From: Candidatus Cloacimonadota bacterium
GTDB lineage: Bacteria; Cloacimonadota; Cloacimonadia; Cloacimonadales; TCS61
Direction: 5' to 3'
NCBI GenBank assembly: GCA_030596265.1
Contig: JAUVKM010000123.1
Coordinates: 1-6,593 of the forward strand
Length of the DNA: 6,593 nt
Shown here: in pieces, positions 1,368 through 6,491 of the stretch
Layout: every line of letters begins with the position of its first letter
Position numbering within the stretch: position 1 is the first letter of the stretch
Made by a program: the position numbers and the translations under genes
The notes under the pieces: generated by a model
Databases searched by the model: none
What the model was told of the DNA's origin: nothing
What the model saw: the letters and a program-made list of their open reading frames with translations, nothing else

Positions 1368-1424
1368 TTTTCTGACGAATGAGTAAGTTAGAAATTGAAA
1401 GATCTAAATGAGATATCCGCGACA

Positions 1425-1466
1425 TTTGTCGTATATAACACCAAATCAGGGGGTGTTCGCGACAAA
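1425..1466. repeat. interrupted inverted repeat (hairpin) downstream of the phosphorylase
   Basis: TTTGTCG (1425-1431) is the reverse complement of CGACAAA (1460-1466). Inside it AACACC (1437-1442) is the reverse complement of GGTGTT (1452-1457) around a 9-base loop. A third small dyad, CGACA-TT-TGTCG (1420-1431), competes with the outer stem, and CGCGACA occurs twice as a direct repeat (1418-1424 and 1458-1464). There is no T-tract after the stem, so it is not a standard intrinsic terminator, though it could still protect or end the phosphorylase transcript. TAACA at 1436-1440 inside it also resembles the start of the attC-like sites further right. Role unresolved. Confidence 0.55.
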
Positions 1467-1485
1467 ATTGACGGGGACACACACA

Positions 1486-1495
1486 TTACAGGCAT
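1486..1495. repeat. left end of cassette A (R'-like core site)
   Basis: TTACAGGCAT, preceded by ACA, is the perfect reverse complement of 4419-4428. With the left end of unit B it shares ACATTAnnGGCA. Canonical integron core sites read GTTRRRY; here the leading G is A at both left ends. Confidence 0.55.
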
Positions 1496-1523
1496 TTGTT
1501 TAAAACAGTAAGAGAAAAAAAAC

Positions 1524-1528
1524 GAGGA
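1524..1528 (+). promoter_or_regulatory. ribosome binding site of the nuclease-like gene
   Basis: GAGGA ends 7 bases before ATG 1536-1538. The start codon lies 41 bases inside the proposed cassette boundary, the short leader usual for cassette genes. No convincing promoter is visible between 1368 and 1535, so the gene may depend on transcription from outside. Confidence 0.6.
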
Positions 1529-1535
1529 AAGCAAA

Positions 1536-2195
1536 ATGAATAGTAAAGATATTCTGAATATTATCATAGAAATTGCCGAAACCATTAAATACAAAGATTC
1601 GATGCTCAACGAAAGATATTTACATCATATGTTCACTTCACTTCTACAAAAAAAACAGAATCTATTAAACTTAACATCTTTAACATCAGAAGACACAATT
1701 TTACATCCTGAATGGCCAACATACAAAAAACAATCAAAAATAAGATGTGGTAGATATAAAAAAGAAAACAACAAATATATACTACATGAATCAGGAACAG
1801 CTGGTTTTGTTGATTTTGCTTTAGGTAATTACAATGAACCCGAAATTGGTATTGAATTTACATTTAAATCCAGTTGGTCAAAAGAAGAAATCACTTATGA
1901 TTTTGTTAAGTTATTAGATAAAAATAATCCTTTTCGTATATCAATCTCATTTAACATTATTTTCAGGAAAAACCAATTAGTAAATAATAACTGGTTACTA
2001 AACTTAAAAAAAGCAATGAATAATTCTTATTTAGAAGCTATGAACAGACTTGAAAATAATATTTGTGATAATAATCGAAGTATCTTCTTTATCATATCTG
2101 AAATTGATAAAACAAACGAAAGACATCATTGGTATTATTCAAAACAAAATCGAAAATTTGTTGATGGATTACCAAAAATTGAATCTAAAGAATAA
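1536..2195 (+). CDS. hypothetical protein resembling a PD-(D/E)XK nuclease
   Basis: A 219-aa soluble protein with no signal peptide or membrane segment; I do not recognise a named family. The central part looks like a PD-(D/E)XK (restriction-endonuclease-like) core. A glycine-led strand GFVDFALG (90-97) carries D93, a following strand IGIEFTFK (104-111) carries E107 and K111, and then comes a charged helix EEITYDFVKLLD (117-128). The E-to-K spacing is E-F-T-F-K rather than the usual E-x-K, so the match is imperfect and activity is uncertain. The N-terminal 50 residues are predicted helical; residues 130-200 alternate hydrophobic strands and Asn-rich stretches. This is the most AT-rich gene of the window by eye, which suggests a foreign origin. 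It sits 33 bases upstream of the secreted propeller gene and probably shares its transcript. The gene is real on length, ribosome binding site and spacing; the nuclease role is a weak inference. Confidence 0.75.
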   Translation: MNSKDILNIIIEIAETIKYKDSMLNERYLHHMFTSLLQKKQNLLNLTSLTSEDTILHPEWPTYKKQSKIRCGRYKKENNKYILHESGTAGFVDFALGNYNEPEIGIEFTFKSSWSKEEITYDFVKLLDKNNPFRISISFNIIFRKNQLVNNNWLLNLKKAMNNSYLEAMNRLENNICDNNRSIFFIISEIDKTNERHHWYYSKQNRKFVDGLPKIESKE

Positions 2196-2214
2196 ATTTT
2201 ATATATTAAGTTTT

Positions 2215-2221
2215 AAAGGGG
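2215..2221 (+). promoter_or_regulatory. ribosome binding site of the Asp-box protein gene
   Basis: AAAGGGG lies 7 bases before ATG 2229-2231 in the 33-base gap after the nuclease-like gene. The spacing matches the other genes of the window and supports this start, which also places the signal peptide at the very N-terminus. Confidence 0.6.
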
Positions 2222-2228
2222 TTTTAAA

Positions 2229-4415
2229 ATGAAAAAATTAATTCTATTCTTATTATGTTCATTATTTTTTATTCAAGTAATTCTTGCAGACTGGGAGCAA
2301 GAAAATGCGCCGCAAAAAGGAAATGTAGAAAAAGTTGTTATTAATAGGATTGACAGTGACATTTTTTATGTAGTCTCATATTCTAAGATATATAAAACTG
2401 TTGATAGTGGAAATAATTGGTATATAATTTTAGAGAACAATAATGTTAACGAATTATTTGCACTTGCACCAAGTAACCAAGACATACTATACTCAAAGGA
2501 ATGGAAAAGTATTGATGGAGGAGAAAGTTGGTTTCAAATCCCTCCAATTCCAGGTATTTTGTATGGTATAAATAACCAAATTGCTATTAATCCAACAAAT
2601 CCAGATATCGTTTTCTCAGCCTATTATTCTGGAATTTATAAAACAATTGATGGAGGAGAATCATGGAATTTAATACAAGATATTGATTCAGAATGGACTG
2701 CTTATGATGATTTAACACCAACAATATTATATTCAATAGGAGATTACGAAGTATATAAATCTGTCGACAGTGGTAATTCATGGGATGAAGTATACTCTGC
2801 AAGCTCTCCGTATTTTTTTGGTAACTTGGTTATCAATGATCATGATTTATATTGTTTAATGGGTGTTTATGCAAATGTAAATATGATAGCAAAATCTACT
2901 GATGAAGGTAATAGTTGGACGATGTTGAGTATAAATTCTATTTATGAGATTAATAACATTAAAAATTTCATCATTGTAGATGATATTATTTATGCAGCAA
3001 CTGATAAGGGATTATATTCATCAAATGATGATGGTTTGACTTGGTTAAGATCTTCAGCTGATTATGATTATTTAGAATCAGTTGATGTATCTAACAAAAT
3101 ACTGACTGGTAGTAGAAATACTGGTGTATCAGTGTCATCCCTCACAGCAGATGATTGGATAAACATTGGAATTGAACCTTTATCACATACTTATTCTAGA
3201 ATAAATACGTCAAGCAATGGAGTAACATTATGCAATGATAATGATGGTATTTATAAATTTTTGCCCGATATTCAAAATTGGCGTACAATAATACCACCAA
3301 TTGGTTCTTATTATTCCCAAATTGCATTAAGTTTTTCCCAACAAAATACTAATAAGGTATTTGTAATACTCAAAGACAAATTATTTAGTAGTGAAAACTC
3401 TGGTGATGATTGGGAATTTATTGCAGAATTGCCAAGTGATATCTCTTCAAATATTATATCGATTTCTCCTGATGACTCAAAGATATTTTTAAAATCCAGT
3501 ACATCATTATTAAGAACACTAAATGGTGGAACTAGTTGGTCTACAAGATCAATCCCTGGCTCTAATCTTTATGACATACATTATTCAGATGATAATGTTC
3601 TATATATTTTGGATGATACTGGTTTTTATTATTCCATAAATGAAGGAAATACTTGGATTTCATTGGATACTAATTTTCCCCCAGAAGGTTCGATATCTGG
3701 AAATGATATATTTTTTGATGTAAATGACAATGATAACCTATTTTGTAGTATTTATATAACAGGTCCTAATGGTTATCAAGTTTATGAAAAATCAAGTGGG
3801 AATTTTGAATGGTCTTTATTATACACTGGTATTATTAATAATCAAGACCCATTAATTACAGATAATATTGTATCTGATCCGAATAACTCTGATTTATATG
3901 GTGCGGGTTGTATATTAAATGATCAATGGGTATATGAATATTGGTTATTTCATTCAACAAATAATGGAGCTTCTTGGGAAAAATGTACAGATTATTTTAA
4001 TTTCTATAGTTATTCAAATTATACATTTTCGAATTATGATCCTTATAAAATGTGGTATATTGATGAAAATAGTGATTTCTGGTTAGGTGATGTACAAAAT
4101 ATGACAGGAACTAGTATAATTCCTAATTCAATTGTTTCTAATTATAATGTTACAATATATCCAAATCCATTTAACCCATCCACTTCAATATCTTTCTCTA
4201 CATTAGCAAAGAGCAAAATCGAATTAACAATATACAATATAAAAGGGCAAAGAGTGAAATCATTGTTAAACACCACTCTTGATTCTGGTGTTCATTCTGT
4301 AGTCTGGAATGGTGATGATAATCTTGGGAACCTTGTAAGCTCTGGTGTATATTTGTACAAACTGAATATCAATGGAAAAACTAAAGTCATTAGAAAAGGT
4401 TTATTAGCGAAATAA
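2229..4415 (+). CDS. secreted Asp-box (BNR) repeat protein with T9SS-type sorting tail
   Basis: A 728-aa exported protein. Residues 1-20 are a Sec signal peptide (MKK, then a hydrophobic run ending ILA, cleavage before DW). Ten Asp-box motifs of the S/T-x-D-x-G-x-S/T-W type follow, at about 57, 94, 139, 178, 223, 265, 388, 430, 469 and 576, e.g. SIDGGESW and STDEGNSW. Spacing is about 40-45 residues in the first six, as expected for beta-propeller blades of the sortilin/YCF48/BNR kind; the gap at 273-387 probably hides degenerate blades. From about 640, YPNPFNPSTS and a FlgD-like Ig fold with YNIKGQRVKSL, WNGDD and SGVYLYKL make a type IX secretion sorting tail ending KGLLAK. The protein is probably delivered to the outer surface or secreted. 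BNR motifs alone do not mean sialidase, and no sialidase catalytic Arg/Tyr set is evident. Ligand or substrate is unknown. It is the second gene of proposed cassette A. Confidence 0.9.
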   Translation: MKKLILFLLCSLFFIQVILADWEQENAPQKGNVEKVVINRIDSDIFYVVSYSKIYKTVDSGNNWYIILENNNVNELFALAPSNQDILYSKEWKSIDGGESWFQIPPIPGILYGINNQIAINPTNPDIVFSAYYSGIYKTIDGGESWNLIQDIDSEWTAYDDLTPTILYSIGDYEVYKSVDSGNSWDEVYSASSPYFFGNLVINDHDLYCLMGVYANVNMIAKSTDEGNSWTMLSINSIYEINNIKNFIIVDDIIYAATDKGLYSSNDDGLTWLRSSADYDYLESVDVSNKILTGSRNTGVSVSSLTADDWINIGIEPLSHTYSRINTSSNGVTLCNDNDGIYKFLPDIQNWRTIIPPIGSYYSQIALSFSQQNTNKVFVILKDKLFSSENSGDDWEFIAELPSDISSNIISISPDDSKIFLKSSTSLLRTLNGGTSWSTRSIPGSNLYDIHYSDDNVLYILDDTGFYYSINEGNTWISLDTNFPPEGSISGNDIFFDVNDNDNLFCSIYITGPNGYQVYEKSSGNFEWSLLYTGIINNQDPLITDNIVSDPNNSDLYGAGCILNDQWVYEYWLFHSTNNGASWEKCTDYFNFYSYSNYTFSNYDPYKMWYIDENSDFWLGDVQNMTGTSIIPNSIVSNYNVTIYPNPFNPSTSISFSTLAKSKIELTIYNIKGQRVKSLLNTTLDSGVHSVVWNGDDNLGNLVSSGVYLYKLNINGKTKVIRKGLLAK

Positions 4416-4418
4416 AAT

Positions 4419-4498
4419 ATGCCTGTAACAAACAGCTCCACTCTCAGATTGAAAGAAGAGCAAGAAGAGCGTGGCAGCTGCCAAACATTAGTGGCAAC
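4419..4498. other. attC-like recombination site between the two cassettes
   Basis: R''-like TGCC-tg-TAAC (4420-4429) faces R'-like ATTA-gt-GGCA (4487-4496). TGCC pairs with GGCA and TAA with TTA; the two central bases mismatch because the halves belong to different cassettes. Inside, CAGCT-CCAC-t-CTC (4433-4445) pairs with GAG-c-GTGG-c-AGCTG (4467-4480), leaving C4475 as a single bulged base, which recalls the extrahelical bases of attC sites. The loop contains a 9-base tandem repeat, AAGAAGAGC twice (4453-4470). The length of about 80 bp lies within the known attC range (about 57-141). Deviations: ATT in place of GTT at the core, and the bulge is on the 3' arm of the + strand. Confidence 0.5.
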
Positions 4499-4515
4499 AT
4501 AGTGTATTAAAAAAT

Positions 4516-4521
4516 GGAGGA
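4516..4521 (+). promoter_or_regulatory. ribosome binding site that favours the second ATG
   Basis: GGAGGA lies upstream of two consecutive in-frame ATG codons at 4525 and 4528. The gap from the last G of GGAGG is only 4 bases to the first ATG but 7 to the second; the other genes here use 7-9. The start at 4528 (MKTLLMS) is therefore preferred. Confidence 0.65.
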
Positions 4522-4527
4522 AAAATG

Positions 4528-6051
4528 ATGAAAACACTTTTGATGTCAGTATTAATATTACTTATTTCATCAGGTTTATTTTCTGATTGGAATGAGGTTC
4601 AAAAGATTTTTGCTTCTGATGGAAATGATCATGAATGGTTTGGGCAGTCGGTATCAATTTCTGGAGGTAATATTTTAATCGGAGCATATTCAGATTTTAA
4701 TCCTAACATTAATGATGGTTCAGCATATATATTTCACAAAGAGGAAGATATTTGGACCGAAGAAACAAAGTTAATAGCAAGTAATTACAGCGATACATTA
4801 AAGTATTTTGGGACTTCAGTTTCTTTAGATGAGAACTATGCTTTAATAGGAGCATTAGGAAATGGAAATGCTTCAGGTACAGCTTATGTATTTCATCGAA
4901 ATGGAACTGATTGGATAGAAGAAGAAATGTTATTTGCTGATGATGGAGAGCCGCAAGATTATTTTGGCTACTCGGTCTCTATTGATGGAAATTTTGCTGT
5001 AATCGGTGCATTTAGAGATGATGATATGGGCTTTGATTCTGGTGCTGCTTATATCTTCAACCGAATGGCTAACAATTGGATTCAAGAAACCAAGTTAGTT
5101 CCATTTGATGGTGCAGAAGAAGATTTCTTTGGTAATGTAGTATATATTTGGGAAGATTACATTGTTGTCGGTTCACCACATGATGATGATAATGGGGAAA
5201 ATTCTGGTTCAGCTTATGTTTATCACAAAGAAGAAGATTCTTGGATATTACAATCTAAAATTACAGCAAGCGATGGTGAACCGCAAAATGGGTTTGGTCG
5301 AGCAGTTTCAATCTATAATGATCATTTAGCAGTAGGTTCATGGTGTAATAATAGTGGTAGTTCAGGTGGAGATCTTGCAGGTTCTGTATACATTTTTAAA
5401 AGATATGGTGATGTTTGGCTTGAAGAAGAAAAACTTACAGCATTTGATGCAAATGATAATGATTGGTTTGGTCGAGCAGTATCAATAAATGAAGATTATG
5501 TTGTGATTGGAGCAGAAGGAGATGATGACATTGGTTCTTGTTCAGGTTCTGTATATTGTTATCAAAAAGTAGATGACACTTGGAATTTCTTAACAAAATT
5601 AACAGCTAGTGATGGTGCTGAATATGACAGGTTTGGAGGGTCAGTTTCAATTTTTGAAGATAACATAGTAGTTGGTGCATACGCAGATGACGTTTACGAA
5701 TACGGTTCTGGTTCTTGTTACATTTTTCAAAACGATGGTTTAGGATTAGAAGAATATAATGTTCAACCTTCAAATAATCTATTTGTCTCAAACTACCCTA
5801 ATCCATTCAATCCTTCAACAACAATAGAATTCTCAATCATTTATTCTTCAACAATTGAACTTGCAATTTTCAATCTTAAAGGTCAGAAAATTAAAACTTT
5901 AGCTTACAATGAATTTGAAAAAGGGGTACATTCTGTAATCTGGAATGGTGATGATGAATTCAATAAACCTGTAGGTTCAGGCGTTTATCTGTATAATTTA
6001 AAAGTAAATGGCAAAACTGAAGCAATGAAAAAATGCTTGCTTTTAAAATAG
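4528..6051 (+). CDS. secreted seven-bladed FG-GAP beta-propeller protein with T9SS-type sorting tail
   Basis: A 507-aa exported protein (508 aa if the ATG at 4525 is used; residue numbers below count from that longer form). A signal peptide covers 1-20, a hydrophobic run ending GLFS before DW. Seven tandem repeats of about 55 residues follow, each of the form W-x-E-x-x-K-L-x-A-S-D-G ... F-G-x-S-V-S-I ... I-G-A-x-x-D-D-D ... S-G-S-A-Y-I-F. They start at W22, W77, W130, W185, W240, W298 and W353, with FG pairs at 39, 95, 147, 202, 257, 315 and 370. Seven copies make one closed integrin-alpha-like FG-GAP propeller. Acidic DDD clusters in several blades might bind metal, but no clean DxDxDG loop is present. 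From 423, NYPNPFNPSTT and a FlgD-like Ig domain with WNGDD and SGVYLYNL form a type IX sorting tail very close to that of the preceding secreted protein. It probably acts at the cell surface in binding or adhesion; the ligand is unknown. It is the only gene of proposed cassette B. Confidence 0.9.
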   Translation: MKTLLMSVLILLISSGLFSDWNEVQKIFASDGNDHEWFGQSVSISGGNILIGAYSDFNPNINDGSAYIFHKEEDIWTEETKLIASNYSDTLKYFGTSVSLDENYALIGALGNGNASGTAYVFHRNGTDWIEEEMLFADDGEPQDYFGYSVSIDGNFAVIGAFRDDDMGFDSGAAYIFNRMANNWIQETKLVPFDGAEEDFFGNVVYIWEDYIVVGSPHDDDNGENSGSAYVYHKEEDSWILQSKITASDGEPQNGFGRAVSIYNDHLAVGSWCNNSGSSGGDLAGSVYIFKRYGDVWLEEEKLTAFDANDNDWFGRAVSINEDYVVIGAEGDDDIGSCSGSVYCYQKVDDTWNFLTKLTASDGAEYDRFGGSVSIFEDNIVVGAYADDVYEYGSGSCYIFQNDGLGLEEYNVQPSNNLFVSNYPNPFNPSTTIEFSIIYSSTIELAIFNLKGQKIKTLAYNEFEKGVHSVIWNGDDEFNKPVGSGVYLYNLKVNGKTEAMKKCLLLK

Positions 6052-6055
6052 AAAA

Positions 6056-6071
6056 GTTGCCACTAACAAAC
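6056..6071. repeat. right end of cassette B (R''-like box)
   Basis: GTTGCCACTAA is the perfect reverse complement of 4488-4498, and the following CAAAC completes the TAACAAAC shared with the end of cassette A. The sequence after it (6072 onward) does not show the strong inner stem seen at 4433-4480, so this last site looks truncated, degraded or of another shape. Confidence 0.5.
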
Positions 6072-6207
6072 GTGCCTGTGGTTCTTAAGTAATGTGAAAT
6101 TTGAGATGAGGAATTAAAAATTAATTAGTACATAAATTTATTTATTAGAGTGCTTTTCTTTCCAAATTATAACCATTCCGCAGCTAAATTAATACAGCCC
6201 AAAAACC

Positions 6208-6235
6208 TTGACACTCATACCTTTGAAAATAACTT
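6208..6235 (+). promoter_or_regulatory. possible promoter of rpmF-plsX
   Basis: The 260-base gap 6052-6311 holds no gene. TTGACA at 6208-6213 is a perfect sigma70 -35 box, with TAACTT at 6230-6235 (16-base spacing) as a poor -10. Alternatively TACCTTTG at 6218-6225 fits the Bacteroidota -7 element TAnnTTTG exactly, but no TTG lies at the expected distance upstream. Either would give a leader of roughly 70-85 bases before rpmF. A promoter is expected here because rpmF is a housekeeping gene now separated from upstream genes. Confidence 0.35.
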
Positions 6236-6311
6236 GGTTTTTTAGATTAGGTTAATGACTTAATGTGTTGAATTAAAAGAAGTTAAAAAATATTAAATAA
6301 GGATGTGAAGA

Positions 6312-6491
6312 ATGGCAGTACCAAAAAGAAAAACTTCAAAATCTCGTAGAGATAAAAGAAGAACTCATTATAAAGCAACTGCACCAACTACAGCAGTTTG
6401 CTCAAATTGTGGTGAGCTATGCAGACCTCATAATGTTTGTGCAAAATGCGGTCATTATAACGGCAAGAAAGTACTAGAAGTTAAAGAATAA
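6312..6491 (+). CDS. rpmF: 50S ribosomal protein L32
   Basis: A 59-aa protein of the large ribosomal subunit. The basic N-terminus [17 protein letters not shown] is the hallmark of bacterial L32. A zinc ribbon follows, with C30-S-N-C33 and C43-A-K-C46; all four cysteines are present, so this is the zinc-binding form. Length is normal for the family. A ribosome binding site, AAGGA at 6299-6303, precedes ATG 6312 by 8 bases. It is followed after 19 bases by plsX, the widely conserved rpmF-plsX order that links translation and phospholipid genes. The gene that often precedes rpmF (yceD, DUF177) is absent; the putative cassette array lies there instead. Confidence 0.97.

Follow-up and report, generated by a model that had tools for sequence, protein, structure and literature searches.

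Cassette units behind an attI-like site in a Cloacimonadota chromosome: a probable integron-like array and its candidate tyrosine recombinases

Introduction

The 6,593 nucleotides of contig JAUVKM010000123.1 (assembly GCA_030596265.1, Candidatus Cloacimonadota bacterium), referred to here as the window, contain two adjacent units, A and B, which raise the question of whether they are gene cassettes of an integron and which enzyme moves them. The original prediction, made from the letters of this stretch, described them as a divergent integron-type cassette array with no integrase in view, and left three options: a cluster of attC sites lacking an integrase (CALIN), the distal part of an array, or an unknown system using similar folded sites. 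According to the comparisons presented here, the window probably holds the start of an integron-like array, consisting of an attI-like site followed by cassettes A and B and inserted between a nucleoside-phosphorylase gene and rpmF in a Cloacimonadota chromosome, whose enzyme is most likely a tyrosine recombinase without the insert (patch) of the integron integrase IntI, referred to below as patchless.

Cassette ends and the attC-like site family

Unit A (1486–4487, + strand), the first cassette, holds two genes and runs from TTACAGGCAT through the end of its own attC-like site. Its ends, TTACAGGCAT at 1486–1495 and ATGCCTGTAA at 4419–4428, are complementary at 10/10 positions. Unit B (4488–6076, + strand), the second cassette, runs from TTAGTGGCAAC through a truncated attC-like site, and its ends, TTAGTGGCAAC at 4488–4498 and GTTGCCACTAA at 6056–6066, are complementary at 11/11 positions. 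The ends of both units are self-matched and covarying as predicted, and CAAAC continues both right ends. The original prediction placed both right ends exactly four bases after a stop codon, which holds for unit B, whereas in unit A the distance is three bases. The right end of unit B has no complete site, as the half site at 6056–6076 (+ strand) comprises only R'' and the start of L''.

The joint between the units at 4420–4494 is a folded attC-like site that recurs in the genome of Candidatus Tenebribacter mawsonii (G001). The complete site of unit A (4419–4498, + strand) has R'' at 4419–4429, L'' at 4433–4441, L' at 4471–4480 with an unpaired C at 4475, and R' from 4488. An alignment of 17 sites (one from the window, 15 from G001, one from G002) was scored over 12 pairs: R'' pairs with R' in a short helix, and L'' with L' in a helix of 9 pairs that leaves one C unpaired. 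Paired cells reached 90.7% as opposed to 82.6% in shuffles and 22–48% with slid partners, the latter control having more weight because related sequences can exceed shuffles even without structure. Cells changed on both sides numbered 20 (9.3 in shuffles) and the covariation score was 0.262 (0.129 in shuffles), with 0/500 shuffles as high in either case. The bulged C is conserved in 17/17 sites and located in L', so that the family shows the imperfect palindrome R''-L''-L'-R' with an extrahelical base by which attC is recognised. In classic attC sites, this base lies in L'' rather than L'.

The covariance model R1, built from the 17 aligned sites, scores 84.2 bits (E 3e-22) on window 4420–4494, which is one of its own building sites, and only 11.6 bits on the end of unit B. 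In G001 it finds 33 places at E ≤ 0.5, among them the 15 that built the model, and 32 at E ≤ 2e-5; at E ≤ 0.5 there are two matches in G002 and none in G003–G005. Searching related genomes for other such units, as the original prediction had asked, revealed the family at E ≤ 0.001 in 49/124 Cloacimonadota genomes and in 1/50 other genomes, these controls being the genomes of loci L008–L057, for some of which the record gives no phylum. The sole control match is an attC-like site in a Candidatus Marinimicrobia genome (G137, L400:1501–1625). Folded as a single bottom strand, the site L138, whose R' and R'' match, has a z-score of −3.5, and the single-strand folds of L100 and L137 have z-scores of −2.9 and −1.0. 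The sequence GACGGGGACACACACATTA, with up to three mismatches, was found in neither G001 nor G002. Viral contigs were rejected as carriers: four stretches match a pattern of 17 fixed bases, and they were taken as chance matches because the covariance model finds none of them.

A cassette whose site is split on integration should carry an R' that pairs with its own R''. For this comparison, 79 of 87 model matches (38, 8, 5 and 36) were entered by hand, omitting eight weak or half matches while one equally weak match (27.4 bits) was kept; two without TAAC and four with fewer than 200 bases upstream were then dropped, leaving 73 sites including the window. An exact partner, defined as a reverse-complementary copy of the ten bases up to and including TAA, was present within 6 kb upstream in 20 of the 73 sites, unit A being one of them, as opposed to 1–3 of 73 in eight permutations in which the end sequences were exchanged among the sites. 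With one mismatch allowed, the count rose to 35/73 (9–17 in the permutations). Many of the 73 sites lie close to contig ends, where no partner can show.

At 14 of the 79 sites, ATTA..CCGCTTCGC stands behind the attC-like site, in most cases as a hairpin with the self-matched ends TTAATCAACAT..ATGTTGATTAA or a variant (L145, L128:7033, L182, L127:5427, L286:2098, L288, L292, L301:11431, L303, L302 and L140 carry stretches of this type). It is perhaps an array end or a mini-cassette.

attI-like landing sites

The bases to the left of unit A recur to the left of other first cassettes and form an attI-like landing site, type 1, at 1412–1485 (+ strand), which would place the crossover between 1485 and 1486. 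Since unit A directly follows this site, the suggestion that the window is the distal part of an array is unlikely. Window 1396–1490 is 98% identical to G078:C13:1737–1831, a stretch that spans the last codons of a 376-aa recombinase open reading frame (ORF; 622–1752) and the DNA downstream of it. Within it, window 1397–1411 (+ strand) reads E-R-S-K-stop as compared with E-I-S-K-stop in the G078 ORF and is a putative relic of the final codons, stop included, of a lost recombinase gene. The attI-like site thus stands beside a recombinase gene in relatives, and the window has the site without the gene, as do several copies in G101, which likewise lack an intact recombinase gene. At L297:4170–4671 (G101, behind the same gene as the L247 platform described below), both recombinase genes are gone save for the last codons, and a partial attI-like site and a cassette remain; the window may have arisen in the same way.

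Type 1 sites were matched at E ≤ 1e-5 in 20/124 genomes, with up to 7 per genome, and the window copy folds with a z-score of −4.1 on the + strand and −2.7 on the − strand. In the 36 distinct copies compared, which were sought by their TT so that columns 0 and +1 are uninformative, base −1 is A in 0.92. Past TTA, conservation falls to 0.31–0.42 (+3 to +5) and then recovers to 0.64–0.75 (+6 to +10), because many cassettes begin with a GCAAT-like stretch. A second type of attI-like site, found behind tandem recombinase genes, likewise occurs in 20/124 genomes, with up to 10 per genome, many matches being partial. Marking the joint with a slash, the attC-like and type 1 sites read A/TTA, and type 2 reads G/TTA in 0.91 of 33 copies, which were kept only if TTA and the A at −3 were present, making those columns uninformative. 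For comparison, integrons proper recombine at G/TT.

In relatives, an attI-like site lies directly 3' of the recombinase in 16 of 18 distinct genes of the HARP or int2 type (described below) with a readable 3' end; one is loosely followed by such a site (L239) and one is without (L235). This count was made by eye from 30 loci, five of which repeat the same platform, and omits L236 with its cut gene, L243 with its broken gene and L238, where no ORF was recognised, with four P0001-like genes counted apart.

Recombinases beside the landing sites

The seven patchless recombinases aligned, one of which (P0001) has no adjoining attI-like site, all lack the insert carried by the six IntI in the same alignment. 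With the IntI model TIGR02249, two attI-linked active enzymes score 239.4 and 216.8 bits, as opposed to a cut-off of 265. An IntI with its patch is thus not what stands beside these sites, and the patchless enzymes are assigned to the array by linkage only. The L259 recombinase is above the cut-off of the XerA-type model NF040815, and the L247 pair is below it. In a tree of 82 rows, in which long branches call for caution and one of these joins near IntI, the 18 IntI form one group (87/94), as do nine int1 (100/100) and ten int2 (100/83) genes. As the recombinases at the landing sites that were aligned lack the IntI-specific insert, the best fit among the options of the original prediction is the last one, an unknown system with similar folded sites.

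At the N-terminus, the HARP domain (PF07443) was matched in 37/60 relatives when E values as high as 0.5 were admitted (the best being 8.3e-5), with no match in the L259 protein, and it is precomputed in P0328, P0334 and P0359. A HARP-like N-terminus of these recombinases is suggestive only. For the L259 recombinase, an AlphaFold2 model (pLDDT 82.5, pTM 0.56) gave IntI4 (2a3v) as the first Foldseek row, and a second search was led by XerA and 2a3v over residues 82–361. A sequence search of the PDB with the N-terminal part found nothing below E 0.19.

Nine tandem pairs were found in eight genomes. Their first gene, int1, has His-II replaced by Ser/Thr and Arg-II by Lys in 9/9 pairs and Arg-I replaced in 8/9, whereas int2 and the single genes keep all three residues. 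The dN/dS values, which are rough since dS is near saturation in several comparisons, are 0.06–0.13 for int1 (five comparisons covering six of the nine genes) and 0.05–0.11 for int2; judging from these ratios, the disarmed partner looks to be under selection.

The first candidate enzyme, P0001 (277 aa, G001), was rejected: neither attI type lies behind it or behind the three genes like it (L217–L220 together), and it belongs to a separate clade (97/97). In L218 and L219, P0001-like genes are followed by a common short motif ending in ACG/TT, possibly a third kind of landing site. Adjoining the P0001 recombinase, a PIN / DUF6364 toxin-antitoxin-like pair (L126:5092–5905, minus strand) lies between TTATGGG and CCCATAA ends, apparently, by eye, inside a response-regulator gene.

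Exchange point in related platforms

In G096 (L247) and G098 (L248), the platform follows one and the same 632-aa gene, and the two platforms match at 74–76% in three collinear pieces. Collinearity stops at L247:4586, the A of A/TTA, beyond which the two carry different cassettes; past this joint, they share only two pieces of about 265 bp, which lie in the cargo and are not collinear. The match between G096 and G075 (L251) stops at the same base. In addition, four contigs (G068:C75, G068:C89, G095:C65 and G001:C336) end exactly at /TTA, as would be expected if the next cassette varied from cell to cell. The prediction of an integron-type cassette array finds support in the folded site family with its bulged base, the matched ends, the attI-like site and the platforms that part at /TTA, which can all be read from the DNA.

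Association with recombinases and alternative explanations

R1 sites occur in 29/31 genomes with an attI-like site and in 20/93 others (p 5e-13), in 20/22 genomes with a patchless recombinase and in 29/102 others (p 6e-8), and in 6/8 genomes with IntI, including a fragment, and in 43/116 others (p 0.057). These p-values are too small, because the genomes are related and kinship was ignored, and the 22 patchless-recombinase genomes were chosen by hand.

The alternative that bears most directly on these figures is an ordinary integron or CALIN, in which a classic IntI encoded elsewhere, and often missing from metagenome-assembled genomes (MAGs), moves the cassettes, while the patchless recombinases next to the sites serve some other function. 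IntI does occur in the phylum, above the curated cut-off in 7/124 Cloacimonadota genomes and as a fragment below it in G072; the G115 protein aligns end to end with VchIntIA (2a3v), insert included, and NCBI names the Cloacimonadota proteins P0139, P0144 and P0200 'integron integrase'. The sites also have the classic attC plan, and a recognisable recombinase is missing upstream of most attI-like copies. Among the eight IntI contigs, several of which are short, that of G098 has an R1-type half site directly adjoining, those of G115 and G111 have a site about 5–6 kb away, and five have none. The weak association of the sites with IntI, compared with that for attI-like sites or patchless recombinases, the position of the attI-like site directly behind patchless genes, and the two such platforms that differ from /TTA on argue against this explanation, which we regard as unlikely. 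A CALIN of a classic integron would fall under the same judgement. A CALIN comprises two or more complete attC sites without an integrase, and the window holds one complete site (4420–4494) and one half site. Overall, the patchless recombinase appears the likelier enzyme.

In G098 (L277:1–1053), the IntI is present in frameshifted pieces that lead directly into the half site at the contig end, as if it were cassette cargo. At L278:8444–9481 and L281:59–1024, in two genomes, IntI lies upstream of the same neighbour (rsmI by eye) with no adjacent array.

A further reading, in which the ends are not recombination sites but the inverted repeats of a transposon-like element or members of a repeat family, such as repetitive extragenic palindromes or terminators, is very improbable. 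In its favour, the sites are repetitive and structured, and attI-like copies are dispersed, type 1 reaching 7 and type 2 reaching 10 in a single genome. Against it, the ends agree inside each unit but not from one unit to the next, one site joins two adjacent units, two platforms part at /TTA, none of the five window ORFs scanned is a transposase, and the window has no Rfam match up to E 1.

Several observations weigh against an array served by a patchless recombinase. In 12 of the 49 site-bearing genomes, no attI-like site, patchless recombinase or IntI was detected, and IntI could act in trans. Landing sites without a recombinase gene are common: a recognisable recombinase C-terminus lies just upstream in only 7/36 type 1 copies (29/36 are without), and an exact partner end lies downstream, within the often short sequence available, in only 6/36. 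The closest MAG, G001, contains six type 2 copies, with neither a type 1 copy nor a HARP-type recombinase found; P0256, with 72% identity, comes from Candidatus Tenebribacter burtonii. Four of the six platform comparisons do not stop at the joint: the L250 match extends 12 bases past it, that of L253 halts about 30 bases before it, that of L252 ends with its contig, and in L297 both genes are largely gone, as is a portion of the site. No allele of the window locus without one of the cassettes was found. In the 17-site alignment, the pairs with changes on both sides number 5 as opposed to 4.4 in shuffles (248/500 as many), and the fold of the attC-like site in the window scarcely exceeds that of shuffles (z −0.7), which is not decisive because the halves of the integrated site belong to different cassettes.

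Proposed mechanism

In the integron-like array preferred here, the cognate enzyme would be a patchless tyrosine recombinase, in many cases with an N-terminus resembling HARP. In relatives, its gene ends a few bases before the attI-like site; at the window locus, this gene would have been lost except for a few codons. The free cassette would be a circle. Its attC-like site would fold in single-stranded form by pairing R'' with R' and L'' with L', with the one conserved bulged base setting the strand. We infer that the patchless recombinase performs the reaction on this single-stranded site, joining it to attI at A/TTA (G/TTA at type 2 sites), so that new cassettes would enter directly after attI. 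As to the kind of action, the integron reading appears to be right; membership in the integrons proper seems to fail on the enzyme, which is assigned by linkage.

More tentatively, and with somewhat less than even confidence, these loci may represent a second kind of integron, in which HARP-type patchless recombinases drive cassette capture at folded sites, attI lies directly 3' of the recombinase gene and a genome has several landing sites. Classic integrons achieve one-strand exchange through the fold of attC. At type 2 sites, the conserved but disarmed int1 would work together with the active enzyme and hard-wire one-strand exchange, and recognition of the folded single strand would pass from the patch to the HARP domain.

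Cargo and chromosomal flanks of the window

The left flank, outside the array, is a pyrimidine-nucleoside phosphorylase gene (66–1367, + strand; PF00591/PF02885/PF07831), whose protein shows 84% identity to L001, Candidatus Tenebribacter mawsonii (Cloacimonadota), the closest genome found by that protein. On the right (6197–6491, + strand), homology to L001 resumes only at 6197, with 84% identity across 115 bp that stops just short of rpmF (6312–6491, Ribosomal_L32p), and the window therefore has about 4.8 kb extra. The spacing between the phosphorylase gene and rpmF is about 140 bp in L001, 220 in L002 and 170 in L004; in the other four of the seven Cloacimonadota phosphorylase loci compared, no rpmF-like start was found on that strand.

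Unit A carries a 219-aa ORF (1536–2195, + strand) for which no family was found, with no Pfam, NCBIfam or PADLOC match at the thresholds used, and a 728-aa ORF (2229–4415, + strand) with Sortilin-Vps10-like repeats and a C-terminal sorting domain (PF15902, PF13860, PF18962). Unit B encodes a 508-aa protein (4525–6051, + strand) with FG-GAP repeats (PF14312, E 1.5e-113) and weak C-terminal sorting-domain matches (FlgD_ig, CHU_C, Por_Secre_tail), all under the cut-offs. PADLOC has no match for any of the three cargo proteins. Several cassette proteins (window 2229–4415 and 4525–6051, and in L247 and L248) have a C-terminal sorting-type domain with a ..KK.LLLK-like tail, and arrays carrying them may vary secreted or surface proteins.

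Relation to known systems and significance

In Treponema-type integrons, intI is transcribed toward attI and the cassettes lie in the same direction (PMC3607928). The Cloacimonadota loci resemble them in the recombinase pointing toward attI, the codirectional cassettes and the attC plan R''-L''-L'-R', and differ in recombinases without the IntI insert, several attI-like copies per genome and the attC joint A/TTA. For archaeal integrons, PMC9668308 places attI immediately downstream of intI, which is comparable to the position directly 3' of the recombinase gene here, and describes most arrays as CALINs in MAGs. Unlike the enzymes described here, the archaeal IntI retain the IntI-specific additional domain, which the same source regards as a defining characteristic necessary for integron recombination (PMC9668308).

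The recombinases share with XerA, XerC and XerD a core without insert, and differ from Xer in the adjoining attI-like site and cassettes, the HARP-like N-terminus in many relatives and the tandem partner with lost catalytic residues. Insertions of integron cassettes at attG have reportedly been described by Loot et al. in 2024. As with these, the cassettes stand outside a complete integron; unlike these, the left joint is a conserved attI-like site rather than an arbitrary position in the chromosome.

Cloacimonadota is absent from the integron phyla listed by a 2021 review (PMC8618304), and the main text of PMC8542988 does not contain the word 'integron'. Among open-licence papers in PubMed Central (PMC), none was found that combines Cloacimon*, integron and attC or that joins the HARP domain and a tyrosine recombinase, and no title or abstract opening among the related papers listed describes this system.

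If the proposed reading is true, surveys based on IntI models miss such platforms. A widespread patchless system would be a second way to recombine single-stranded sites, and the role of the patch would become testable. In that case, the selected, disarmed partner would also provide a handle on how one-strand exchange is enforced.

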